From contig JAATFF010000133.1 of the NCBI GenBank assembly GCA_015655335.1, positions 1 to 47,731 of the forward strand: 47,731 nt of DNA, read 5' to 3'. Each line of letters starts with the position of its first letter. The stretch's first letter is position 1. This document shows, piece by piece, positions 3,364-47,731 of this stretch. The position numbers were made by a program, and so were the translations under genes. The DNA comes from Lysobacterales bacterium. Its GTDB lineage: Bacteria; Pseudomonadota; Gammaproteobacteria; Xanthomonadales; Rhodanobacteraceae. The notes under the pieces were generated by a model. That model was not told the origin of the DNA. It worked only from the letters and a program-made list of their open reading frames with translations, and made no database searches.

Positions 3364-4148
3364 GTCGCCGCATCATTCCATGCCTGGACGTGCGCGATGG
3401 CAAGGTGGTCAAAGGTGTGCGTTTTCGTGATCACGTGGTGATGGGCGAGATTGTCGAACTCGCCTTGCGTTACCGCGACGAAGGCGCTGACGAGCTGGTG
3501 TTTTACGACATCACCGCGAGCCCGGAAGGTCGCAGTGTGGATCGAAGCTGGGTCGAACGGGTTGCGCGCGTTATCGACATTCCGTTTTGCGTCGCCGGTG
3601 GCATCCGCTCTGTGGACGAGGCACGCGGTGTGCTGTATGCCGGCGCCGACAAAATTTCGGTCAATTCGCCCGCACTAGAACGCCCCGAACTGATCGATGA
3701 GCTGGCCGCCGCCTTTGGTGTGCAGTGCGTGGTGGTGGGTATCGATTCCATGCGTGATGCTGACGGTGAATGGCGTGTGCGTCAGTACACCGGCGATCCT
3801 TCCAAGACACGCGCGCTGTTGCGAAGCACGCTCGATTGGATGATTGAAGCGCAGCGGCGCGGCGCCGGTGAGATCGTTCTTAATTGCATGGACAGCGATG
3901 GTGTGCGCAAGGGTTACGATTTGACGCAGCTCGCTGCAGCGCGCGCGGTTTGTCACGTGCCGCTAATCGCCTCTGGCGGTGCCGGTACCATGGAGCACTT
4001 TCGCGATGCGTTTGTGCGTGCCGGCGTCGATGGTGCTTTGGCAGCCAGCGTTTTTCACAGCGGTTCCATCGCAGTGCCCGATCTCAAACGATATTTGCAG
4101 CAACAAGGCGTGGTGGTTCGCTTGCAGGAGATATCTGGCCATGAATGA
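3357..4148 (+). CDS. hisF: Imidazole glycerol phosphate synthase cyclase subunit
   Basis: Cyclase subunit (263 aa) that turns PRFAR plus ammonia from HisH into imidazole glycerol phosphate and AICAR. The paired barrel aspartates lie in [16 protein letters not shown] at the N terminus and in [12 protein letters not shown] chose the ATG at 3357 because the protein then begins [12 protein letters not shown] as in other HisF. The frame is open further upstream (to 3144), but that part lies inside hisA and is not HisF-like. It overlaps hisA by 7 nt and hisIE by 8 nt. Confidence 0.96.
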
Positions 4149-7184: not shown

Positions 7185-7828
7185 GCGTTCAATCTCCTCA
7201 AGTCGAGTTCACAGCCAAGCAGGAATTCCAGCGCTTCCAGGTGGCGCTGTGCTTCGGCCATATCGTGCCCCCAGGTATAGATGCCGTGGCCGTTGATCAG
7301 GTAGGCATGCAGCGGTTTGCCGCTATCGATCCAGGTGTCGACCTGCGCGACCAGTTCGGGCATGTGCTGGGTGTTGGGAAAAACGGGGATGTCCAGCGCG
7401 CTTTCGTGTGTGGTGTGGCCGCGAATGGCTTTTTGCAATTCCCAGCCTTCCAGTTTCACAACGCCATCTTTGGCGAATAGGCGTGACGCAACGCTCTGCG
7501 TTCGCGAGTGCGTATGCAGCACCGCATTGACCTCGGGCCAGCGGCGGTAAAGCTGCGTGTGGAGTTCCGTTTCGGCGCTTGGACGCGAACTCGTGCCGAC
7601 GGCCTTGCCATTCATATCCACCAACATAATGTCGTCGCGACCGAGCTTGCCCTTGTCGCGACCGGATATGGTGATGGCGGCGTGATCGGCGTCTACGCGC
7701 ATCGAAAAATTGCTGCTTGTGGCCGGTGTCCAGCCGTGTTGCGCCAGTTCGCGCGCGGCGGTAGCGATCGCATCTGCACGCTCATGAAACAGCGTGGTGG
7801 GAATGGAAGATGGCAAGATTTGGCTCAT
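7181..7828 (-). CDS. mtnB: Methylthioribulose-1-phosphate dehydratase
   Basis: Class II aldolase-fold, zinc-dependent dehydratase (215 aa) acting upstream of MtnC. The metal-binding HTHSR segment, the third His in [11 protein letters not shown], and the substrate loop [17 protein letters not shown] are all present. It is the first gene of the mtnBD unit, with a sigma-70-like promoter 28-55 nt upstream. mtnA and mtnK/mtnP are not in the window, so the rest of the salvage pathway is elsewhere. Confidence 0.95.
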
Positions 7829-7855
7829 GGTAAATGGACGTCCAAACGAGGTACG

Positions 7856-7883
7856 ACTATAGCATGGGGGCGAAAAATGGTAA
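7856..7883 (-). promoter_or_regulatory. Candidate sigma-70 promoter for mtnB
   Basis: Read on the minus strand, TTACCA (7883-7878, 4/6 to the -35 consensus) and TATAGT (7861-7856, 5/6 to the -10) are separated by 16 nt. The predicted transcript start lies about 20 nt before the mtnB ATG. Called by eye. Confidence 0.5.
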
Positions 7884-7983
7884 TGCGAGTTATTCGCGAA
7901 AGGGTCTGAATGGACTTGGCGGCGTTAGGATATGAAAGGAATCGCCGCATACCGGTGGCGAATAAACCGTGATGAGGATTGTT

Positions 7984-8316
7984 ATGTCCGGGTGTGAAGA
8001 TATCGAGTCACGTCGTCGTTTCCTCAAGTTTGCCGCCGGCGGTGCAGTCGGGGCAATGCTGATCGGTGGATTGCCGCGCATCGTGCGTGCAGATGATCTA
8101 CCGCATGTTTCCGATGCCGATCCTACGGCCAAAGCACTGGGTTACGTTGAAGACGCAACCGTGAGCAAGGATCCGAAACACAAGACGGGCGATACGTGTG
8201 CCAATTGCCAGTTCTATTCCGGTGGCCCGACGGGTTACGGTCCATGCCAGCTGTTCCTGGGCAAATCGGTGAGCGCTAAAGGCTGGTGCGTTTCGCACAC
8301 GCCTAAGAAAGCTTGA
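7984..8316 (+). CDS. High-potential iron-sulfur protein (HiPIP), Tat-exported
   Basis: Small periplasmic [4Fe-4S] electron carrier of 110 aa. The Tat signal is ESRRRFLKFAAGGAVGAML, with the twin Arg at about 10-12. The mature domain carries four cysteines, C72, C75, C88 and C102, in TCANCQFY, YGPCQLF and GWCVSH, the HiPIP pattern. I chose the ATG at 7984 because AGGA sits 6 nt before it; upstream in-frame GTG and ATG codons (7969, 7972) would only lengthen the n-region. HiPIPs shuttle electrons between the bc1 complex and terminal acceptors. A monocistronic unit is likely, since an intrinsic terminator follows. Confidence 0.93.
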   Translation: MSGCEDIESRRRFLKFAAGGAVGAMLIGGLPRIVRADDLPHVSDADPTAKALGYVEDATVSKDPKHKTGDTCANCQFYSGGPTGYGPCQLFLGKSVSAKGWCVSHTPKKA

Positions 8317-8771: not shown

Positions 8772-10229
8772 TCAGCTCTTCGCTGAGCTATTGGCAAGAC
8801 GCAGGCGACTGTGCCGAACCCCATAGGCGAAATAAATCGCAAAGCCGATCAGGGTCCAGGCGATCATCAGGGCCCAATTGAACCAGTCCATGGTGCACAG
8901 CAGGGCCAGGCAGCTGAGTACACCGGCGGTGCATGTGAGTCCGGCCCAGGGCACGCGAAACGTGCGCGGCAATTCGGGTGACGTGTAGCGCAGGATCAGC
9001 ACGCCAGCGCATACGGCGACAAACGCGATCAACGTGCCCATCGACGTAAGATTCGTCAGCAGGTCCAGTGGAAACACCGCTGCGAGTACGGCGATGCCGA
9101 CGCCGGTGATGACGGTATTCACATGCGGCGTGCGATGGCGGGGGTGAATGCGATTGAACACCTGCGGCAGCAGGCCATCGCGCGACATGATCATGAAAAT
9201 GCGCGGCTGCGCGATGATCATCACCAGGATCACTGAAGAGAGGCCGATCAGTGCGCCGATTTCCACCCAAGGACGCAACCAGTTGAGTTCGGCATGAGCA
9301 CGAATCGCTGTGACAACGGGTTCATCGGTGCCCAGCAGGTTGTACGGAATAAGGCCCGTCAGAACAGCAGCCATCGCCAGGTAAAGCACGGTGCAGATCA
9401 CTAGCGACACCAGCGTACCGAACGGTAGATCGCGCTGCGGATTTTTGCATTCCTGCGCGGCGGTCGATGTCGCTTCGAATCCGATATATGCGAAGAACAC
9501 CATGGCCGCACCCCGGAAGATGCCATCCCAGCCGTATTTGTGATTACCTTGCGACGGCGGAATGAACGGGTGCCAGTTGGCTGGATTTACATAACGGTAG
9601 CCGGCGACCACCACCAGCACGATCAGGCCCACCTTCAGCATCACCATCAACAAATTGATGCCGGCCGATTCACGGATGCCGACGTAACAAAGCCACGTCA
9701 GCGCCAGCACGATGGCGACGGCGGGCAGGTTGATCAAGTGACCGGTCGCTACCAGCTCGCCGTTGGTATAGGCGAACGGTGCATCGGTAAGTGTTTGCGG
9801 GAGATGTACGCCGACGTTATCAAGCAAGCTGGTGAAATATCCGGTCCAGCTCGCGGCAACGGCGGACGCGGAGATGCCATATTCCAGCACCATGTTCCAG
9901 CCGATGAACCATGCGGTCACTTCACCGAGTGTGGCGTAGGCATACGAATACGAACTGCCGGAAATCGGGATAAGTGTGGCGAATTCGGAATAACACAGCG
10001 CGGTGAATCCGCTGCAGATAGCGGCGAGGATGAAAGAGATCAGCACGGCCGGCCCGGCGTGGTCCGCCGCGGCCTGACCCGTTACCACGAAAATGCCGCT
10101 GCCGATGACTGCGCCAATGCCGAGCGCCGTGATGCCCCACGGGCCCAACGTTCGCCGCAGGCTCGGGCCATGTGAGCTGTCGGCGTCATCGGAAAAATCG
10201 GTTTTGCGGGCGAACAACTGCTTGAGCAT
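8772..10229 (-). CDS. APC-family amino acid permease (cationic amino acid transporter type)
   Basis: Inner-membrane protein of 485 aa with about 12 hydrophobic segments and a polar N-terminal tail. The family signature GIGAVIGSGIFVVTG lies in TM1, with SGSSYSYAYATLGE in TM3 and FFAYIGFEATSTAAQE in TM6, as in YfnA/CAT transporters. The substrate cannot be told from sequence; CAT-type members carry amino acids by proton coupling. It is related to, but clearly different from, the next permease gene on the same strand, and a terminator separates the two. Only a weak hairpin (AGCTC/GAGCT) overlaps its stop codon. Confidence 0.9.
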   Translation of the reverse strand: MLKQLFARKTDFSDDADSSHGPSLRRTLGPWGITALGIGAVIGSGIFVVTGQAAADHAGPAVLISFILAAICSGFTALCYSEFATLIPISGSSYSYAYATLGEVTAWFIGWNMVLEYGISASAVAASWTGYFTSLLDNVGVHLPQTLTDAPFAYTNGELVATGHLINLPAVAIVLALTWLCYVGIRESAGINLLMVMLKVGLIVLVVVAGYRYVNPANWHPFIPPSQGNHKYGWDGIFRGAAMVFFAYIGFEATSTAAQECKNPQRDLPFGTLVSLVICTVLYLAMAAVLTGLIPYNLLGTDEPVVTAIRAHAELNWLRPWVEIGALIGLSSVILVMIIAQPRIFMIMSRDGLLPQVFNRIHPRHRTPHVNTVITGVGIAVLAAVFPLDLLTNLTSMGTLIAFVAVCAGVLILRYTSPELPRTFRVPWAGLTCTAGVLSCLALLCTMDWFNWALMIAWTLIGFAIYFAYGVRHSRLRLANSSAKS

Positions 10230-10248
10230 AAGGGTTCCGGAAATAAAG

Positions 10249-10274
10249 CCGGCACGGTGTTTTCACCGTGCCGG
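10249..10274 (-). terminator. Intrinsic terminator between the two permease genes
   Basis: Perfect 11-bp stem CCGGCACGGTG (10249-10259) with its complement at 10264-10274 and a 4-nt loop. On the minus strand it is followed by CTTTATTT. It lies 32 nt past the stop of the upstream permease gene (10307-11791), so the tandem permeases are separate units. Confidence 0.75.
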
Positions 10275-10306
10275 ACAGGATTCACTCAATGATGCGGCGC
10301 ATGGCC

Positions 10307-11791
10307 TCAGGTGGGTTCGGTGCCATTGGCGAGATGGCTCTTGCGATAACCGTAGAGGTAATAGACCACAAGGCCGACAACACCCCAGGCAAAGAATATT
10401 TCCAGTGTCTTGAGCGGTAGGTTGACGAACAGCAGCAGGCAGCCCAGCACCGCAAGCGGGCAGACGATCCACACCAGCCGCATGCGGAAGGGGCGCTTGC
10501 GATCGGGCTGCGTCACGCGCAGAACCATCACACCGATTGCCACCATCATGAACGCGAACAGCGTGCCCGAGTTCGTAATGTCCGCCAGCTGACCCACTGG
10601 GTAGATCGCGCCGAAGATGGAAACAAAAATACCCGTGATCAGCGTGACCACATGCGGCGTGTGGAAGCGCGGATGAATCTTGGAGAGGAAGTTGGGAAGC
10701 AGGCCGTCACGCGCCATCGTAAAGAAAATACGCGTCTGCCCATACGTCATGGTCAGGATCACAGAAGGCAGCGCAATGCCGGCGGCGAGGCCGAGGAAAG
10801 TGCCGAGCTGGTTATGGTTGAGCATGCGCAGAACATGGGCCAGCGCTTCCTTGCTGCAGACAAGCGCTTCGGAGGCTTTGCATGCCGCCGCCATCTCCGG
10901 CGTGCCAGGCTGCAGAGCCATCCCATTGGCGCCCAAGATCGGCTGTGCGCCGACCGAACCGATCGCACTATAGCTCACCAGTAGGTAATAGACGGTACAG
11001 ACACCGAGCGAGCCAATCAGGCCGATCGGGATGTTGCGGTTGGGATTCTTGGTTTCCTCGGCCGCGGTGGATACCGCATCGAAGCCGACGTAAGCGAAGA
11101 AGATTGAAGCGGCAGCGCCAAGCACGCCAATGCCGCCCATCGGGCTACCCCAGCCGTTGGGTACGAACGGCTTGAAATTCGGATCCTTGACGGCGGGTAG
11201 CGCCACGAAGATAAAGGCGGTAAGCGCCAGCACCTTAACCACCACCAGCACGCTGTTGACCTTCGCCGACTTTGATGTGCCAATCACCAGCAAAAAGGTG
11301 ATGACGGCACCGATCAAGAAGGCCAGCAAGTTGAACGTGCCACCATCCATCGGACCGGTGCGCAGAAATTCCGGTAGGCCAAAGCCCGCATGCGCAAGCA
11401 ACCCGTTGACGTAACCCGACCAGCCTACGCATACCGTGCTGGCCGCGATCGTGTATTCCAGCACCAATGCCCAGCCGACGATCCAGGCCATGCCTTCGCC
11501 GAGCACGCCATACGTATAGGTATAGGCGGAACCGGCCACCGGCACCATCGAAGCGAGTTCGGCGTAAGCCAATGCGGCCAGTCCGCATACCACGGCAGCG
11601 ATGATGAAAGAGATCATCATGCCGGGACCGGCTTTCTGTCCGGCTTCTGCGGTGAGAACGAAAATACCGGTGCCGATAATGGCGCCGATACCCAACATGG
11701 TGAGCTGGAATGCGCCAAGCTGTCGGGTGAGAGCTTTCTTTTCGGCTGTGGCGAGAATCTGGTCGAGTGGCTTGACGCGCTTGAAAAGCAT
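10307..11791 (-). CDS. APC-family amino acid permease
   Basis: Inner-membrane transporter of 494 aa with about 12 membrane segments. TM1 carries GIGAIIGTGIFVLTAEAG and TM6 carries FFAYVGFDAVSTAAEE. An extended loop between TM7 and TM8 (about 290-325) has two Cys. I chose the ATG at 11791 (MLFKRVKPL), preceded by GGGGAG 8-9 nt upstream; an in-frame ATG at 11815 has no ribosome site. CAT-type family; substrate unknown. About 215 nt separate it from the outer-membrane protein gene, room for its own promoter. Confidence 0.9.
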   Translation of the reverse strand: MLFKRVKPLDQILATAEKKALTRQLGAFQLTMLGIGAIIGTGIFVLTAEAGQKAGPGMMISFIIAAVVCGLAALAYAELASMVPVAGSAYTYTYGVLGEGMAWIVGWALVLEYTIAASTVCVGWSGYVNGLLAHAGFGLPEFLRTGPMDGGTFNLLAFLIGAVITFLLVIGTSKSAKVNSVLVVVKVLALTAFIFVALPAVKDPNFKPFVPNGWGSPMGGIGVLGAAASIFFAYVGFDAVSTAAEETKNPNRNIPIGLIGSLGVCTVYYLLVSYSAIGSVGAQPILGANGMALQPGTPEMAAACKASEALVCSKEALAHVLRMLNHNQLGTFLGLAAGIALPSVILTMTYGQTRIFFTMARDGLLPNFLSKIHPRFHTPHVVTLITGIFVSIFGAIYPVGQLADITNSGTLFAFMMVAIGVMVLRVTQPDRKRPFRMRLVWIVCPLAVLGCLLLFVNLPLKTLEIFFAWGVVGLVVYYLYGYRKSHLANGTEPT

Positions 11792-12007
11792 GAATGGGGC
11801 TCCCCGTGAAAACAAATATCACATCGATTAGAAACCGCGACGAATCAGGGCGCGTCGATCCGAGGTGACGCCCAACCATAGCGGAGCGGCTTGGGGCGTA
11901 CAAGCTGCATTGCGGCTAGACAATTGGAATGTCCGGGATGGGCGGACACCGTTTTCTCGACCGTCGGATGGCGCCTGCGTTTTGCGGTGTTGTTGATGGT
12001 GCCTTGC

Positions 12008-12985
12008 TCAGAAAACCATGTTGAAGGCGGTCATCGGCGTGACGAACGCATCGTTGTTGCGCCCTGCAAAACTCAATTGCACACCGCTGATGAGGCCGAA
12101 GCGATCATTGAAGTTGTATTCGATCGCAGGTGCCAAGCTATAGACCGAACGCAATGGGTCGCGGCGTGCGAAAGGCGTCGATGCATCTGCGGCGCCCTGC
12201 ATGCCTTTCAGCTGCGACGCCGATGCGCGGTTGTAGGCCAGGTCCATGGCGAGCACCCAGTGGAGATCGATGCTGTATTCGGCCGAGGTAGAAATGCCGA
12301 GTGAGTTGCCTAGCCGCACATGTCCGTGGAAATCCTGCGATGTGCCGTAGGCACTCATACCGGTTACATCCACTTGATTCGGCGGAAGGCTGTAGGACGC
12401 GACAGCGCGGAAACGCAGCGGCCTGCCGTTGGGCAGCCATACGTACTGCTGGACCATGAGAGAAAACGTATCTACTGAGGCGCCGTCGCCGGCGGCATTG
12501 AGCGGATTTTCGTTCAGCCGGTCATAGGCGCCCGTCGGGAATCGATGCGAATAGTTCACCGATACGGCGGGGTCTTTCTTATCCTCCCCTGGCGACAGCA
12601 GCAGGTACTGGGCTCCGAACGTTGTATCGTTCGCACCCAGACCATCGGTATGCGCGCCTGCTGACATGGCATGCGCCGCACCACCGGTCAGTTGCAATTG
12701 GAAGCGATCGGTGACGCCGTAAAAGATAGGGATCAGGGTTTGCCATTGGCGCGTGCCGGCAGCTTTGGTGTAACGCTGCCCTTGATCGTTATAGGCATCA
12801 TCACTGCTGTAGTAAATCAGATACGGCTCGACGATTAGCATGCCGGCAGGCGCCGTCATGGGATTGGACGTCAGCAGCGGTCCGGTAAAATTTGCCGGTG
12901 AATCCGAGGCCACCGCCTGGCTTCCCAGCAGTGCGGTTGAAAGCAGACAAACGAGAGAGCTGAGTTTGCGGTAGGGGCGTGTCAT
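12008..12985 (-). CDS. Outer-membrane beta-barrel protein, putative (meta-pathway transporter type)
   Basis: 325 aa. There is a clear signal peptide (about 1-26, ending SQAVA). The rest is alternating polar and aromatic strand-like segments with Gly/Asn turns, such as LQLTGGAAHAMSAG, VSVNYSHRFPTGAYD and AEYSIDLHWVLAMDLAYNR. It ends in Phe (NMVF*), the usual outer-membrane assembly signal. It resembles uncharacterised transporter-like barrel proteins of the phenol meta-pathway type, but the substrate is unknown. It may share a region with the permease downstream, though a 216-nt gap suggests separate control. Confidence 0.65.
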   Translation of the reverse strand: MTRPYRKLSSLVCLLSTALLGSQAVASDSPANFTGPLLTSNPMTAPAGMLIVEPYLIYYSSDDAYNDQGQRYTKAAGTRQWQTLIPIFYGVTDRFQLQLTGGAAHAMSAGAHTDGLGANDTTFGAQYLLLSPGEDKKDPAVSVNYSHRFPTGAYDRLNENPLNAAGDGASVDTFSLMVQQYVWLPNGRPLRFRAVASYSLPPNQVDVTGMSAYGTSQDFHGHVRLGNSLGISTSAEYSIDLHWVLAMDLAYNRASASQLKGMQGAADASTPFARRDPLRSVYSLAPAIEYNFNDRFGLISGVQLSFAGRNNDAFVTPMTAFNMVF

Positions 12986-13179
12986 AGGGCGCGTCTTGAT
13001 ATCGTGTAATGAGTTGACTGAGATGGCTCGCGCGGAACACGAGTCGTCATGGCACGATTCAAGCTATTGACTGCGCTGGATATGATCTATCGTTCAATTC
13101 TGAAAAACACTGCGATATCGTTTTTTTGATCGGAATGACTCGCCTTGTAAGTTTTTACTGACTCATCTAGGGGTTGTTT

Positions 13180-13722
13180 GTGAATCTTCGTCAGTCGTTG
13201 TGCCATTACGCGGATCGCCATCCTCACGATTCCCATGTGACTGCATGCTTGGCTTTTTTGGATAAGGCCGTGCGCCCATTTGATCGCGCACACGAGCTAG
13301 GGCATTTCACGGCATCCGCCTGGCTTGTCGACGCGGATGGTAAACACGTATTGCTTACGCACCATCGCAAGTTGAATCGATGGCTGCAGCTGGGTGGTCA
13401 CGCTGACGGTGACAGCGATCTGGCAGCCGTTGCGCTGCGTGAGGCACAAGAAGAATCGGGCTTGGTCGATTTAATCGACGAGCCGGATGTGTTTGATGTA
13501 GACAAGCATTGGATACCTGAGCGCAAGGGCGAGCCCGGGCATTGGCATTACGATGTGCGCTATGTCGTGCGCGCAAGCACGCGCGACGGGCTTGTCGTCA
13601 GCGACGAATCCTTGGACCTGGCGTGGGTATCCATACGAATGCTGGCCGATGCCGACGATACGAATGATTCGTTGCGGCGCATGGCGCGCAAGTGGCTGGA
13701 GCGCGAAACAAGTACCGGCTAG
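13180..13722 (+). CDS. Nudix hydrolase
   Basis: 180 aa with a Nudix box at residues 73-95, [20 protein letters not shown] then SGL. The metal-binding REAQEE core is intact, but the first Glu of the GX5E part is Ser here (Asp next to it). Nudix enzymes hydrolyse nucleoside diphosphates linked to another moiety; I cannot name the substrate. I chose the GTG at 13180 because AGGGG lies 6 nt upstream; a TTG at 13174 is in frame but inside the spacer. Its TAG stop shares the CTAG tetranucleotide with the stop of the facing dioxygenase gene. Confidence 0.85.
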
Positions 13723-28664: not shown

Positions 28665-29213
28665 TTATTTGCTTTTGAGCAATACCACGACGGCGCCGGT
28701 GCCCCCTTGCATCGGGCGTGCGGAGGCGAACGCAATCACGTCGTCCCGTCGACGCAGCAGGCGCTCGGTCAGTGCCTTCAGCACCGGACCGGCTGCTTTG
28801 GAACGCAGTCCTTTGCCGTGCACGATGCGTACGCAATGCAGCCCGCGCGCGGATGCCTCGGCGAGAAATGCCGTGATGGTTGTTTGCGCCGCAGCCGCAT
28901 TCATCTGGTGCAGGTCGATATCATCCTGCACGCTGTATTGGCCACGCTTGAGTTGGCGTAGCAATTTGGGCGGATAGCCGTCGTGCAGGTAGCTCAGCTC
29001 CTCGCCGACCTCCATCAGAGCCGGATCGAAAGCCATGTCCAGCAATTCGCCCGGCACCGCCGCCTCATCGGCCTCAAGCATATGAGGGTGCGGCTCGGGT
29101 TTGGGTATCGCAGGAGGCGGTGCGACAGGATCCAGCCGACGCACATCACCGATCGCATCACGGAAAAGGCGGCTGTCCTCATCGTTGACGGTGGTTGGCG
29201 TGCGGCGCTTCAT
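28665..29213 (-). CDS. Smr-domain protein
   Basis: 182 aa. The C-terminal Smr (MutS2-related) domain covers about 95-182, with DLHQMNAAAAQTTI, VRIVHGKGLRSK and the final GGTGAVVVLL. The N-terminal half is charged and Pro-rich. Smr domains are nicking nucleases or RNA-cleaving modules; stand-alone bacterial members (YfcN/SmrB) can cleave mRNA at collided ribosomes. The usual LDLHG is DLHQ here. I chose the ATG at 29213, with AGGA 8 nt upstream; an ATG three codons earlier is in frame. It faces truD. Confidence 0.88.
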   Translation of the reverse strand: MKRRTPTTVNDEDSRLFRDAIGDVRRLDPVAPPPAIPKPEPHPHMLEADEAAVPGELLDMAFDPALMEVGEELSYLHDGYPPKLLRQLKRGQYSVQDDIDLHQMNAAAAQTTITAFLAEASARGLHCVRIVHGKGLRSKAAGPVLKALTERLLRRRDDVIAFASARPMQGGTGAVVVLLKSK

Positions 29214-29381
29214 GGAAATCATCCTAACGAATGACGGACGATTCTAGGGAGGGTTTCGTGGTGGTGAGTGAAGTCGAGGCGCAGCCGTGAAACCGCCGGT
29301 CCGCTCAGTTAGACTCCAAAGTTCAGGGAGCGTGTGACGGAGCCTTCGGGCCGCACGCCGTAAATCAGCTTTGAACGGATC

Positions 29382-30176
29382 ATGATGCGAGTTCTGGTTA
29401 GTAACGATGATGGCGTGGATGCTCCGGGCATCCGCGTACTTGCCGAGCGCCTTGGCGTCGTCGGCCAGGTGACGGTGGTGGCTCCTGATCGCGATCGCTC
29501 CGGCGCAAGCAACTCCTTGACACTCGATGCACCGATCCGCGCGTTGCGGATGGACAATGGCTATTACCGTGTCGCGGGTACGCCTACCGACTGCGTGCAT
29601 CTCGCGTTGGCCGGCATGCTGGACTATGAGCCGGATATCGTCGTTTCCGGCATCAACAATTCGGCCAACCTCGGCGACGACGTGATCTATTCCGGTACGG
29701 TGTCGGCCGCGATGGAAGGACGTTTTCTCGGCTTGCCGGCGATTGCGGTGTCATTGGTCAGCAAGGATCACAAGGGCGAGCATTACGATTCAGCCGCCAA
29801 AGCCGTGCTGCTGTTGATGGAGCGCCTGTTGGTCGATCCGCTTCCGGCGGACACCATTCTCAACGTCAACGTTCCTGATCGTCCCTGGGAAGATATCCTC
29901 GGCTTTGAGGTAACACGCCTTGGCAAGCGGCATCGTTCTGCGCCTTGCATCAAGCAGACCGATCCACGCGGCAAAACGATCTGGTGGATCGGTCCTGCCG
30001 GCGACGTCGACGATGCGGGCCCAGGTACGGATTTTCATGCTGTGCAGCGCGGGTACGTATCGTTAACGCCTATCCACGTTGATCTCACGCGTTTCCAGGC
30101 TTTGGAAAAAGTCAGCAGTTGGGTCCATGCGTTGACCGACGGCATGAATGGGAAAACCGATGGCAAGGCAGCGTGA
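29382..30176 (+). CDS. surE: 5'/3'-nucleotidase SurE
   Basis: Metal-dependent survival phosphatase (264 aa) hydrolysing nucleoside 5'- and 3'-monophosphates. The metal site is [14 protein letters not shown], and [20 protein letters not shown] is the second signature. Met codons at 29382 and 29385 are equally plausible starts. It is upstream of pcm as in E. coli. The 159 nt before it hold no gene I can support. Confidence 0.95.
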
Positions 30177-30177
30177 G

Positions 30178-30873
30178 GTGAACGTGCATCCATTGCCGCC
30201 ATCCGCCCTCAAGGGCGAGGGAATGACCTCTCAGCGCGCGCGCGATCGGCTTGCCGCCAAGTTGAAGGAAGAGGGTATTCACGATCAGCGCGTGATCGAT
30301 GTCATCCGCAATTTGCCGCGTCATCACTTTATCGATCAGGCACTGCATTCGCGCGCCTATGAAAACACCGCGCTACCGATCGGTCACGGTCAGACGATCT
30401 CGCAACCCTGGGTGGTGGCGCGCATGACGGAGGCGCTGCTTGAGCCGTTCGATAAGAAGGACGGGCGTCCGCTGAAAGTGCTGGAGATCGGCACGGGTTC
30501 GGGCTATCAGGCAGTCGTGCTGGCGAACTTGGTGCCGCAGGTTTTCACGGTCGAACGTATCGAGGAGCTGTTGCGCCAGGCGCGCCGTCGGTTCCGGCAG
30601 CTTGGCATCGACAACATCCGTTCGCGTCACGATGACGGCAAGCTGGGTTGGGCTGCGGAGGCGCCGTTCGATGCCATTATCCTGACGGCGGCCGGCGACG
30701 CCATTCCCACCCAGGTGCTCGACCAATTAAGTCCCGACGGCGTGCTGGTGGCGCCGGTGGGTTCTCCTAGCAGTCAAACCCTGATCCGTATGCGCGGTGA
30801 CGGTAAAGGCGATTTCATGCAAGAAGAATTGGCTGCCGTGAGTTTTGTACCGTTGCTGGGCGGCATCGGCTGA
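30178..30873 (+). CDS. pcm: Protein-L-isoaspartate O-methyltransferase
   Basis: Repairs isoaspartyl residues in damaged proteins using SAM (about 231 aa). Motif I is [16 protein letters not shown]. The substrate segment is [23 protein letters not shown], and post-motif I is [10 protein letters not shown]. The start is uncertain: GTG at 30178 gives about 18 residues before the conserved TSQRARDRL, like relatives, while ATG at 30223 would give a shorter protein. Its TGA overlaps the next ATG by one base. Confidence 0.93.
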
Positions 30874-32814: not shown

Positions 32815-33111
32815 TTAACGCGGCAAAGCAAGCCGCGGATCGTCTTCGTTGCGCCGGAACAGCACCACGATGTGACCGATCTGCTGCACGCTTTCGGCAC
32901 CGGTTCCTTTGAGCAAGGTGCCGATCTGCGTGTCGCGCTCGTCTTTGCCGCCGCCGGAGAGCTTCACTTTCACCAGCTCGTGGTGCGACAACGCCAGGTC
33001 GAGTTCCTTCACCACCGCTTCGGTCGCGCCCTTGGCGCCCAGCAGAATCACCGGGTGAAGATCGTGAGCGAGGCTGCGCAGATAGCGTCGCTGCGAAGGG
33101 GAAATGGCCAT
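32815..33111 (-). CDS. yhbY: Ribosome-associated RNA-binding protein, CRM domain
   Basis: 98 aa CRM-domain protein of the YhbY family, which binds pre-50S particles. Motifs are LRSLAHDLHPVILLGAKGAT and the GxxG-type loop in LSGGGKDER. It is divergent from rlmE as in E. coli and many Gammaproteobacteria; the shared 77-nt spacer to the rlmE start must hold both promoters. Confidence 0.93.
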   Translation of the reverse strand: MAISPSQRRYLRSLAHDLHPVILLGAKGATEAVVKELDLALSHHELVKVKLSGGGKDERDTQIGTLLKGTGAESVQQIGHIVVLFRRNEDDPRLALPR

Positions 33112-33188
33112 GCGTTCAGTCTCGGATTCGCGACTAGGGGACCGTAAAGGGTATCATGGACTTCCCCTGTTCCCGGCCGTTGCCGATC

Positions 33189-33839
33189 ATGCCTCGCAGC
33201 AAGAGCAGTTCCCGCTGGCTGCGGGAGCACTTCGATGATGTCTACGTCAAAAAGGCCCAGGCCGAGGGGCTGCGTTCGCGTGCGGTTTTCAAGCTGGAGG
33301 AGCTGATCGAGCGCGATAACCTGCTCAAGCCGGGTATGCGCATAGTGGACCTCGGCGCGGCGCCTGGCGGGTGGTCGCAGCTGGTTCGTCAGCGCCTGGG
33401 CGATAGTGGTACCGTGGTGGCGTTGGATATCCTGCCCATGCAGGGTATTGGCGGCGTCGATTTCTTGCAGGGCGATTTTCGTGAAGAAAGCGTCTTGCGT
33501 GAATTGGAGTCGCACCTGGACGGCCAAAAGCTCGATCTTGTGCTGTCGGACATGGCCCCCAATATGAGTGGGGTGGCCTTGGCCGACCAGATCCGAGCGA
33601 TGGATCTGGCCGAACTGGCGCTTGATTTCAGTAAGCACTGGCTCAAACCGGGCGGAGCGTTTTTAATCAAGTTGTTCCAGGGAACGGGCTTCGACGATTA
33701 CCTGCGAGGCTTGCGCACGTCCTTCACGCGCGTAAGCATGCGTAAACCAAAGGCCTCACGCGCACGTTCGCGTGAGGTATATGCGCTGGCTACCGGATAC
33801 AAACCGGGCGGCCGGCAGACTGGCGAGAACCGCGCATGA
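33189..33839 (+). CDS. rlmE: 23S rRNA (uridine-2552) 2'-O-methyltransferase
   Basis: RrmJ/FtsJ methyltransferase (216 aa) for U2552 of the 23S A loop. The SAM site is [14 protein letters not shown], and the K-D-K-E tetrad is recognisable in [12 protein letters not shown] and FLIKLFQG. I chose the ATG at 33189 ([15 protein letters not shown], the family N terminus); the in-frame ATG at 33156 adds 11 unconserved residues. It overlaps ftsH by 4 nt. Confidence 0.95.
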
Positions 33840-40206: not shown

Positions 40207-40907
40207 TGCATGTCATTGGGCCGCCCGGCAGGGCTGGCGGTTCGTTCTGTTGACGATTAGAACCCTCATTCGATATCTAACCGAAGAAAGGTTCATGCCC
40301 GGAATGCCTGAGTTACGGAGGCGATTCCCATGAAGCCAATATTCTCTTTCGATGCCCAGCCAGGGCGTGCGGTTTTCCCGCTGTTGCTATAAACCCCGAT
40401 GAAATCACGCGTCGTGAGTTCGGTCAGGTAGGCGGTCGTTGGCGCCGGATCGGTCGTAATGCAAAACGATTCGGCAGAAACCAAGCGTGACGCCGCCGGC
40501 GTCGCCCGCGATTCGTAAAGGTTGGCTGAATGCATCGGGTGGAGGCCATCCCGACCGGGGCTCCCGGCGGGCATCCGTGCGTGGCTCCACACGCGGGTTA
40601 CAGATTAGCTGCAGTCCGAGGACATGTCCAGCGAGCGCTTCAGCTGCCGTAGGGGTTCGGTGCCAGGGAAGATCGCGCCCGTGCACGGTGCGGCAGCATG
40701 TGACCCGTCGCGTCTCCTGTCAGTTCGTCGGCTGCACTGAAACACATAAAAACAGCCTGTGAAACGTGGTTGTAGCAGTGGCATATGGCTTGCATCATCA
40801 TAGGAAGATATCCAAGGGGCATTGGCGGCCAAGGGCAGATGCGCGAGGCAGGATGCGATCCAGGATGGGGTCTGGGCCGATGGCGGCGACGCTAAGCGGG
40901 GAGGGAG
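40207..40907. other. 700-nt stretch with no supported gene
   Basis: It lies between scpA (-) and the PilZ gene (+). Several frames of 60-140 codons are open on both strands, but none shows a recognisable motif and their composition is not consistent. I see stable hairpins (for example GACGCC-GCC-GGCGTC at 40489-40503) and a 20-codon ORF with a good ribosome site (40330-40392). It could be a long 5' leader, an sRNA region or a decayed gene. Confidence 0.6.
40330..40392 (+). CDS. Possible 20-residue peptide with strong ribosome binding site
   Basis: GGAGGCG lies 7 nt before the ATG. The peptide is MKPIFSFDAQPG then RAVFPLLL. No homology is recognised. The ribosome site is among the best in the window, but so short an ORF occurs easily by chance, and a longer open frame lies on the opposite strand over the same bases. 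Confidence 0.25.
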   Translation: MKPIFSFDAQPGRAVFPLLL

Positions 40908-43661: not shown

Positions 43662-46406
43662 TCAGGCAGCCTTCTTGCTGGCCAGCTGACGCAAGACGTA
43701 CTGCAAGATGCCCCCATGGCGGAAGAACTCGCGTTCCTTCGGCGTCAACAGCAACACTTTCACCGTGAACGTCTTTTCGCCTTTATCGCCCTTGGCGACC
43801 ACCGTGGCTTCTTTCGATTCGCCGTCCTTCAAGCCGGTGATCTCGAACGTTTCCTTGCCGGTCAGGCCCAGCGACTTGGCGTTCTCGCCATCTTTGAACT
43901 GTAGCGGTAGCACGCCCATGCCCACCAGGTTGGAGCGATGGATGCGTTCGAAGCTTTCGGCGATTACCGCCTTCACGCCCAGCAACAAGGTGCCTTTGGC
44001 TGCCCAGTCACGCGATGAGCCGGTGCCATATTCCTTGCCAGCCAACACGATCAGCGGTGTCTTGTCGGCTTTGTATTTCATCGCCGCATCGTAGATGGCC
44101 ATCTGCTCGCCGTTCGGCACGTAGAGCGTGTAGCCACCCTCGACACCATCCAGCATCAGGTTCTTGATACGGATGTTGGCAAAGGTGCCGCGGACCATTA
44201 CGTCGTCATTACCGCGACGCGAGCCGTAGGAGTTGAAGTCGTGCGGCTCCACACCCTTGGAGATCAGGAAGCGTCCCGCCGGGCTGTCCTTCTTGATCGA
44301 GCCGGCCGGGGAAATGTGGTCGGTGGTAATCGAATCGCCGAACACACCCAACGCATGTGCGCCATGGATATCTTCGATCTTGCCGATCTGCATCGTCATG
44401 CCGTCGAAGTAGGGCGGGTTCTTGATGTACGTCGAATCGCTCCACTTGTATACGGCGCCGTCGGGTGAGGCGATGTGGTTCCAGCGCGTGTCGCCCTTGA
44501 ACACGTCGGCATAGTTCTTCTTGAACATCTCCGGATTGATCGCACCGGCGATCACGTCGGAAATTTCTTGGTTGCTGGGCCAGATGTCCTTCAAGTACAC
44601 CGGCTTGCCGTCCTTGTCTTCGCCCAGCGGGTCCTTGGAAAGATCGACATCCAGCGAGCCCGCCAGCGCATAGGCAACGACGAGCGGTGGTGAAGCCAGG
44701 TAGTTCATCTTCACTTCCGGATGCACGCGGCCTTCGAAGTTGCGATTGCCGGACAGCACGGATGCCACGGCAAGGTCGCCCTCGGCAATGCCCTTGCTGA
44801 TTTCCGCGGGTAGCGGACCGGAGTTACCAATGCAGGTCGTGCAGCCATAGCCGACGATGTAGAAGCCGACCTTCTCCAATTCTTTGAGCAGTCCGGTCTT
44901 TTCAAGATAGTCGGTAACCACCAGTGAGCCCGGGCCGATCGACGTCTTCACCCACGGCTTTGCCTTCAGGCCTTTGGCAGCTGCCTTTTTGGCCAGCAAT
45001 CCAGCGCCCAACATCACTGCTGGATTTGAGGTGTTGGTGCACGAGGTAATCGCCGCAATCACGACCGCGCCATCACCGAGCAGGAAGCTTTGGTTGTCTT
45101 TCTCTACGCGCACGCCGCCACTGGTGATGCTGTTGGCAGGATTGCCAATCGCTGCGCCGCCGCCTTCATTCTGAAAGCTTCCAGCATCGCCATTGGATTT
45201 GCGGTTGGCGGTTAGCGGACCAATGGCTTCCTGGAAGCTCTTCTTCACGCCTTCCAGCAACACGCGGTCCTGCGGGCGCTTCGGGCCAGCCATGGATGGC
45301 CTTACATCGGCCAGGTTGAGTTCCAGCGTGGTGGTGAAGTGGGCGGGCGGCGTGTTCTCGTCATGCCACAGACCTTGGGCCTGTGCGTACGCTTTGACCA
45401 ACTCGATGTGATCATCGCTGCGGCCGGACAAGTGCATGTAGTTCAATGCTTCTTGATCGATCGGGAAGATGCCACAGGTGGCACCGTATTACGGCGCCAT
45501 GTTGCCGATGGTGGCACGGTCGGCCAGCGGTAGATGCTTGAGACCGTCGCCGAAGAACTCGACGAACTTGCCAACCACGCCAAGCTTGCGCAGCATCTGC
45601 GTCACCGTCAGTACCAGGTCGGTAGCAGTGACACCTTCGGACAATTTGCCGGTGAGCTTGAAACCCACGACTTGCGGAATCAGCATCGAAGACGGCTGCC
45701 CCAGCATCGCCGCTTCCGCTTCGATACCGCCGACGCCCCAGCCCAACACACCGATGCCGTTGATCATCGTGGTGTGCGAATCGGTGCCAAATACTGTGTC
45801 CGGATAAGCCCAGCTCTCGCCGTCCACTTCTGCAGTGAACACCACACGAGCCAAATGCTCCAGATTCACCTGGTGCACGATACCGGTGCGCGGCGGTACG
45901 ACCTTGAAGTTGTTGAACGCTTTCTGGCCCCAGCGCAGGAACGAGTAACGCTCCTGATTGCGCTCGAATTCGATCTCGACGTTTTTCTCCAGCGCGGATT
46001 CGGAACCGTAGACATCCACTTGCACGGAATGATCGATCACCAGTTCGGCCGGCGCCAGCGGATTGATCTGATTGGCATCGCCACCTAGCTTCACCACCGC
46101 ATCGCGCATGGCGGCCAGGTCGACCACGCAAGGCACACCGGTGAAATCTTGCAGCACCACGCGCGCCGGCATAAACGCAATCTCGGTATCCGGCTCGGCT
46201 TTGGGATCCCACTTGGCAACCGCTTCGATTTCCTTTTTGGTGACGCTGACGCCGTCTTCGTGGCGCAACAGATTCTCCAGCAGGATCTTCATCGAATAAG
46301 GAAGATGCTTCAGATCGAAATGCTTGCCGAGCTTGGTCAGGCTGGCGATCTGATACGTGCTGCCTTTGACCTTGAGGGTGTCGCGGGTGGCGAATGAATC
46401 CTGCAT
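43662..46406 (-). pseudogene. acnA: Aconitate hydratase A gene interrupted by an in-frame TAA
   Basis: The reading frame equals a full AcnA of 914 aa (citrate-isocitrate isomerase, TCA cycle) except for TAA at 45491-45489, codon 306. The text reads RATIGNMAP, stop, YGATCGIFPIDQEALNYMHL, where homologues have Glu at the stop (NMAPEYGATCG), so one G-to-T change (GAA to TAA) explains it. All three Fe-S ligands lie beyond it: C456 in ITSCTNTSN and C522/C525 in YGCTTCIGNSG. The 305-aa N-terminal product cannot be an active enzyme. No other stop or frameshift is present. Possible causes are recent inactivation, a base-call error, or suppression. GGAG precedes the ATG at 46406. acnB, divergent, may compensate. 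Confidence 0.9.
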
Positions 46407-46733: not shown

Positions 46734-47731
46734 ATGCTCAACGCCTACCGCCAACATGTCGCCGAGCGCGCTGCGCTGGGTATTCCCCCGCTGCCGTTGT
46801 CGGCCCAACAGACCGCTGAGCTGATCGAACTCCTGAAGAATCCGCCTGCTGGCGAAGAGGCCACCCTCGTCGAGCTGATCACGTACCGTGTGCCGGCGGG
46901 CGTCGACGATGCCGCGAAGGTCAAGGCGTCGTATCTCGCTGCTGTTGCCTTCGGTACCGAGAAGTCCGCATTGATCAGCCGCGAGAAAGCGACCGAATTG
47001 CTCGGCACCATGCTGGGCGGCTACAACATCCATCCCTTGATCGAATTGCTCGACGACGCACAGGTGGGTGGCATCGCTGCCGAAGCGTTGAAGAAAACCT
47101 TGTTGATGTTCGACTCCTTCCACGACGTCAAGGAAAAGGCCGACAAGGGCAACGCGCACGCCAAGTCCGTGCTGCAAAGCTGGGCCGATGCAGAGTGGTT
47201 CACCAGCCGTCCGGAAGTGCCCAAGAGCCTGACCATCACCGTGTTCAAGGTGCCGGGCGAAACCAACACGGACGATCTGTCGCCGGCACCCGACGCCACC
47301 ACGCGTCCAGATATCCCGCTGCACGCACTGGCCATGCTGAAGAACAAACGCGAAGGCGCACCGTTCCAGCCGGAAGAAGACGGCAAGCGCGGTCCGATCC
47401 AGCAGATCCTCGATCTCACCAAGCAGGGTCATCTCGTTGCGTACGTGGGCGACGTGGTCGGCACCGGTTCCAGCCGCAAGTCCGCCACCAACTCCGTGCT
47501 GTGGTGGACGGGCGAAGACATCCCCTTCATCCCAAACAAGCGCTTCGGTGGTGTTTGCCTGGGCAGCAAGATCGCGCCGATCTTCTACAACACGATGGAA
47601 GATGCTGGTGCGCTGCCGATCGAGCTCGACGTCTCCAAGATGGAGATGGGCGACGTGGTCGAGCTGCGTCCGTATGAGGGCAAGGCACTGAAGAACGGCG
47701 AAGTGATCGCCGAATTCCAGGTCAAGTCCGA
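46734..47731 (+). CDS. acnB: Aconitate hydratase B, 3' end beyond window
   Basis: The first 332 residues of the bifunctional aconitase/2-methylisocitrate dehydratase (about 860 aa in full). The N-terminal HEAT-like domain begins MLNAYRQHVAERAALGIPP and includes GGYNIHPLIELLDD, as in AcnB. The swivel domain follows, with DATTRPDIPLHALAM, VGDVVGTGSSRKSATNSV and NKRFGGVCLGSKIAPIF. The Fe-S cysteines lie beyond the window. Start ATG at 46734 has AAGGACGAG upstream. It is divergent from acnA and would be the working aconitase if acnA is dead. Confidence 0.95.
   Translation, partial: MLNAYRQHVAERAALGIPPLPLSAQQTAELIELLKNPPAGEEATLVELITYRVPAGVDDAAKVKASYLAAVAFGTEKSALISREKATELLGTMLGGYNIHPLIELLDDAQVGGIAAEALKKTLLMFDSFHDVKEKADKGNAHAKSVLQSWADAEWFTSRPEVPKSLTITVFKVPGETNTDDLSPAPDATTRPDIPLHALAMLKNKREGAPFQPEEDGKRGPIQQILDLTKQGHLVAYVGDVVGTGSSRKSATNSVLWWTGEDIPFIPNKRFGGVCLGSKIAPIFYNTMEDAGALPIELDVSKMEMGDVVELRPYEGKALKNGEVIAEFQVKS

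Follow-up and report, generated by a model that had tools for sequence, protein, structure and literature searches.

The acnA gene of the window (the whole stretch of DNA that was analysed, 47,731 nucleotides, which is the entire contig C45 of a draft genome) is interrupted by a single in-frame TAA at codon 306. The interruption is best explained as a single erroneous consensus base in a draft assembly that is fragmented, with acnA itself intact, a reading that was assigned a probability of roughly 0.55 and was judged somewhat likelier than a null allele that is real and of very recent origin. The gene would accordingly encode an ordinary AcnA aconitase and belong to the divergent acnA-acnB pair of its group, and we infer a wrong base and not a new mutation.

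The acnA frame and codon 306

The acnA frame is located on the minus strand at positions 43662-46406, terminator included, and comprises 914 codons (46406 to 43665) followed by the natural terminator at 43662-43664. Direct reading of the sequence gave TTA at 45489-45491 of the plus strand, corresponding to TAA on the minus strand. The open reading frame at 46406-45489 therefore consists of 305 codons (codons 1-305, 45492..46406) and this stop, after which the same frame is open for 608 more codons (codons 307-914, 43665..45488) up to the terminator. Both the motif around the stop (NMAP-stop-YGATCG) and the length of the undisrupted run behind it agree with the preliminary description. No second lesion was found in acnA, the rest of the frame being clean.

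In a profile search, the two pieces matched consecutive positions of the AcnA model NF006757 (4-307 and 323-887 of 888), the C-terminal piece being counted from the first start codon in it, which lies 14 codons past the TAA; the N-terminal piece also matched positions 5-225 of Pfam PF00330. Scored alone, the N-terminal piece reached 510.5 bits, below the cut-off of 686, and the C-terminal piece 870. Read through the stop, the frame scored 1432.3 bits, with '1 TAA' inside, so that a full-length match above the cut-off is obtained across the TAA, while no single uninterrupted frame encodes the whole of AcnA. Three cysteines of the frame (456, 522 and 525), which are presumed to be the ligands of the 4Fe-4S cluster, align with cysteines of human IRP1. 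All three lie past the TAA, consistent with the earlier claim that the Fe-S ligands come later than the stop, and a terminated product should for that reason not be an aconitase. If the base were real, translation would end at residue 305, leaving an inactive fragment.

For comparison with relatives, loci from other genomes were examined; 114 entries (113 in a first count), 107 of them distinct, contain the stretch NM[AS]PxYGATC. The position of codon 306 is Glu in every one of the 107, encoded by GAA in 69 and by GAG in 38, just as had been stated for AcnA homologues; the sequences with GAA or GAG belong to species other than that of the window, whose own acnA has a stop at this position of NMAPEYGATC. 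With Glu found there throughout, the TAA is no mere accident of how the sequences were aligned. The position presumably corresponds to the active-site Glu262 of mitochondrial aconitase, an assignment that the alignment register fits (window residue 304 was aligned with residue 259 or 260). The nearest relative by acnA, G009 (81-89% DNA identity over the main pieces), has GAA at this codon, and the TAA of the window thus differs by a single base from GAA, the more frequent of the two Glu codons in relatives. This short distance favours a genuine and very young nonsense mutation, a single G-to-T substitution at the Glu codon carried by the strain or by part of its population, which was regarded as a serious contender, at somewhat over one chance in three.

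Constraint on acnA and the stop in related genomes

Comparison of acnA between the window and G009 gave a dN of 0.0127, a dS of 0.509 and a dN/dS of 0.025 (0.0067 before the stop and 0.032 after it). After polarisation by three outgroups, the window branch showed 45 synonymous and 5 nonsynonymous changes, compared with 45 and 6 on the branch of the intact sister. Given 3.2 nonsynonymous sites for each synonymous one, the probability of five or fewer nonsynonymous changes is 0.011 if 5% of the branch was unconstrained and 0.13 if 2% was. The unconstrained share of the acnA branch of the window is hence below about 5%. There was no sign of decay or relaxed selection in lesions, dN/dS or branch counts relative to the sister, and the gene has neither the additional lesions nor the relaxed selection of an established pseudogene. 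Since the branch lacks relaxed selection, the stop is either very young or not real. The clean remainder of the frame and its low dN/dS support a consensus error, and the absence of traceable decay or relaxed selection counts against a null allele.

At 97.5% identity to G009, acnA ranks sixth among 45 window alignments, a set that includes some non-genes. In one of the best conserved genes of the window a real null is least to be expected, whereas a random error may strike any gene. Given this high conservation, the stop is better explained by a random error than by a mutation that is tolerated, though only by a modest factor.

An interior acnA stop was detected in 1 of 16 genomes of the genus, and none of the 15 others looked close enough to belong to the species of the window. 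In the family, a match at E <= 1e-290 was obtained in 132 of 137 genomes (124 of the 127 good ones), and best matches were listed for 131 of these 132 (G332 was left out). Among the 131, the interior stop occurs in the window's own genome only (1/131), and no conservation of the stop among relatives was thus found in this set. Its restriction to one assembly argues for an error, and the strong match kept in 132 of 137 genomes argues against a null. Interior stops were also flagged in G057, G050 and G040, where they fall outside the aligned residues (1 to 909-911). In the wider search of the order, the only other flagged stop among the matches listed, in G200, is at residue 910 and represents the natural end.

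Loss of acnA may nevertheless occur within the group, a point in favour of a null allele and against an error. Of the five family genomes without a match at E <= 1e-290, four are 85-94% complete (G314, G328, G348 and G361). The fifth, G327, is 99% complete; no acnA candidate was found in it, perhaps owing to natural loss of the gene. In addition, the best match of G044 to the C-terminal piece of AcnA is only 47% identical. At the level of the order, a match at E <= 1e-100 was obtained in 291 of 299 genomes (all 243 good ones), but an argument from retention of acnA throughout the order was dropped, as AcnD-type genes match the model too and the matches themselves were listed for part of these genomes. 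G044, for instance, has a match at this level although its best match is only 47% identical.

In-frame stops and the quality of the draft

The draft genome comprises 3,504,455 bases in 169 contigs, is 86.17% complete and gave only 27 tRNA matches, a state of fragmentation that makes a wrong consensus base easier to accept. A six-frame codon-usage screen for in-frame stops covered 446 kb, made up of the window and 20 other stretches of the draft, and required 60 open coding-like codons on each side; it is estimated to find about half of such stops and replaced an initial codon-usage screen that was too noisy (552 stops). It returned 25 in-frame stops between coding-like stretches, and only for that in acnA was a position within a gene demonstrated. 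Pfam scans on both sides of 20 of the 24 others placed 17 between different families. Two had no family upstream and were uninformative (L147, minus strand, 10398; L157, minus strand, 12337), and one was flanked on both sides by the same short domain, read as two paralogues (L156, plus strand, 10733). Four stops in the window (39276, 32817, 22140 and 20121) were taken as gene boundaries, G009 having separate open reading frames on either side of each.

If the screen finds about half of all cases, a single such stop would, as a rough estimate, require a substitution error in about 1 in 10,000 bases. Stop-making errors in this assembly look rare, although disrupted genes do exist. That acnA provides the sole stop shown inside a gene in 446 kb weighs against an error, and the scarcity of nonsense codons elsewhere in the draft favours a real mutation. 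Among Pfam matches in the own genome, 38 ABC_tran, 22 TonB barrel, 44 MFS and 7 Aldedh matches were without a stop, and of 19 ACR_tran matches one contained a TAG and one, below the cut-off, a TAA. Judged by coordinates, two ACR_tran genes (C7 near 89615-89621; C149 near 11114-11144) and one MFS_1 gene (C56 near 3643-3787) seem to be frame-split. These splits could be real or assembly errors; if the latter, they lend support to an error in acnA as well.

Several other regions of the window were noted in the alignment with G009. Stops fell within the first 70 residues of the G009 open reading frame in the alignments at 8775-10472, 10310-11875, 33030-33836 and 7810-8313. The first three were read as over-long starts; at 7810-8313, the alignment with a 168-codon open reading frame of G009 is 76% identical, three stops of the window fall within the first 52 codons, and the segment may be either a small gene in decay or another case of an over-long start. 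The segments at 28674-30278 and 40303-40659 align to G009 at 74% and 61%, respectively, and were taken as non-genes, and about 1.4 kb at 11919-13299 are without a main match in the collinear G009 contig.

Decoding of the stop, acnB and comparison with known systems

The preliminary description had named a base-call error, a recent substitution and a suppressed stop as possible causes. The first two both fit the data, and the third found no support. A TAA that is read through or suppressed, serving as a switch or being decoded by a special tRNA, would yield full-length AcnA. Such decoding would require the conservation that is seen past the stop, but this conservation is accounted for equally well by an error or a young mutation. 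No TTA, CTA or TCA anticodon was detected among the 27 tRNAs found, although one could be missing from the incomplete draft, and genes for both RF1 and RF2 are present in the own genome. TAA is also in use as an ordinary terminator, since it accounts for 10 of the 24 other stops in the screen, which mostly lie between genes of different families. The TAA of acnA is followed by T, and the resulting UAAU context is described as the most efficient bacterial termination signal (PMC5289835). The stop was, moreover, seen in no other relative among the matches listed. Neither a TAA-reading tRNA nor a loss of TAA as terminator was thus found, and readthrough is considered very unlikely.

Even less credence was given to a split aconitase, in which a 305-residue piece and a 594-residue piece started from a TTG at 45446 would be active together in the manner of LeuC and LeuD. 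Its starting point is the 594-codon open reading frame that begins 14 codons past the TAA. LeuC and LeuD divide at the linker to the swivel domain; the break in acnA, by contrast, falls within the catalytic core, 150 residues ahead of the first cluster cysteine, and a stop at this place was present in no other family genome among the matches listed. A real stop at this active-site position with AcnA still made, either across the TAA or as two pieces, is highly improbable overall, and no sign of a new way of decoding was found in the tRNAs, the release factors, the stop context or the relatives.

If the stop were instead a real null mutation, the cell would make a fragment devoid of cluster cysteines and swivel domain, with the aconitase activity left to AcnB. 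An intact-looking acnB does adjoin acnA, in divergent orientation. Its N-terminal 332 codons are located on the plus strand at 46734..47731, match TIGR00117 at positions 1-321 and are cut by the contig end, and the remainder forms 531 open codons at the end of contig C46 (G000:C46:20566-23518, G000 being the window's own genome). When placed on G009, contigs C45 and C46 share three bases where they join, and the acnB frame agrees. Three matches were obtained in a Pfam aconitase search of the own genome. Two of them are acnA and the rest of acnB on C46; the third, on C146, was taken as LeuC rather than another acnA on the basis of its sequence and a LeuD-like neighbour. The search of this draft, which is 86% complete, found no further copy of acnA. 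The earlier proposal that the strain relies on AcnB is accordingly possible if the stop is real, being consistent with an adjoining acnB that is open on both sides of the contig break and with the lack of a second acnA in the 86% of the genome that the draft covers.

Work on Xanthomonas bears on both sides of the question. According to PMC3321045, a delta-acnA strain there grew like the wild type in vitro, which favours a tolerated null and weakens the case for an error in the window. The acnA gene, called rpfA in Xanthomonas, is not without function, as a mutant of it in X. campestris was recognised because extracellular enzymes and polysaccharides were affected (PMC3321045). In E. coli, AcnA is described as the aconitase of stationary-phase or stressed cells (PMC8987015). 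A search of the literature by title or abstract start revealed no report of this acnA allele among the matches listed.

The observation itself is accurate, and the acnA stop is an ordinary event under the preferred reading of a consensus error as well as under that of a young mutation. If real, it would represent one natural acnA null alongside a retained acnB, and a minor piece of evidence on the dispensability of AcnA. If an error, it serves as a caution: when a single nonsense codon turns up in a draft genome, in a gene under constraint, the reads should be consulted before loss of function is claimed.

The gene shares its full-length sequence and three cysteines with AcnA-type aconitate hydratases (NF006757, TIGR01341; acnA, rpfA in Xanthomonas), and the divergent acnA-acnB layout in the window is that described for Xanthomonas (PMC3321045). 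It differs from them in that its frame is broken by a TAA at codon 306, in this assembly only. Compared with a pseudogene made by a single nonsense mutation or with a sequencing error in a draft, it likewise shows one substitution, no further decay and absence from relatives, and nothing sets the acnA of the window apart from such cases.
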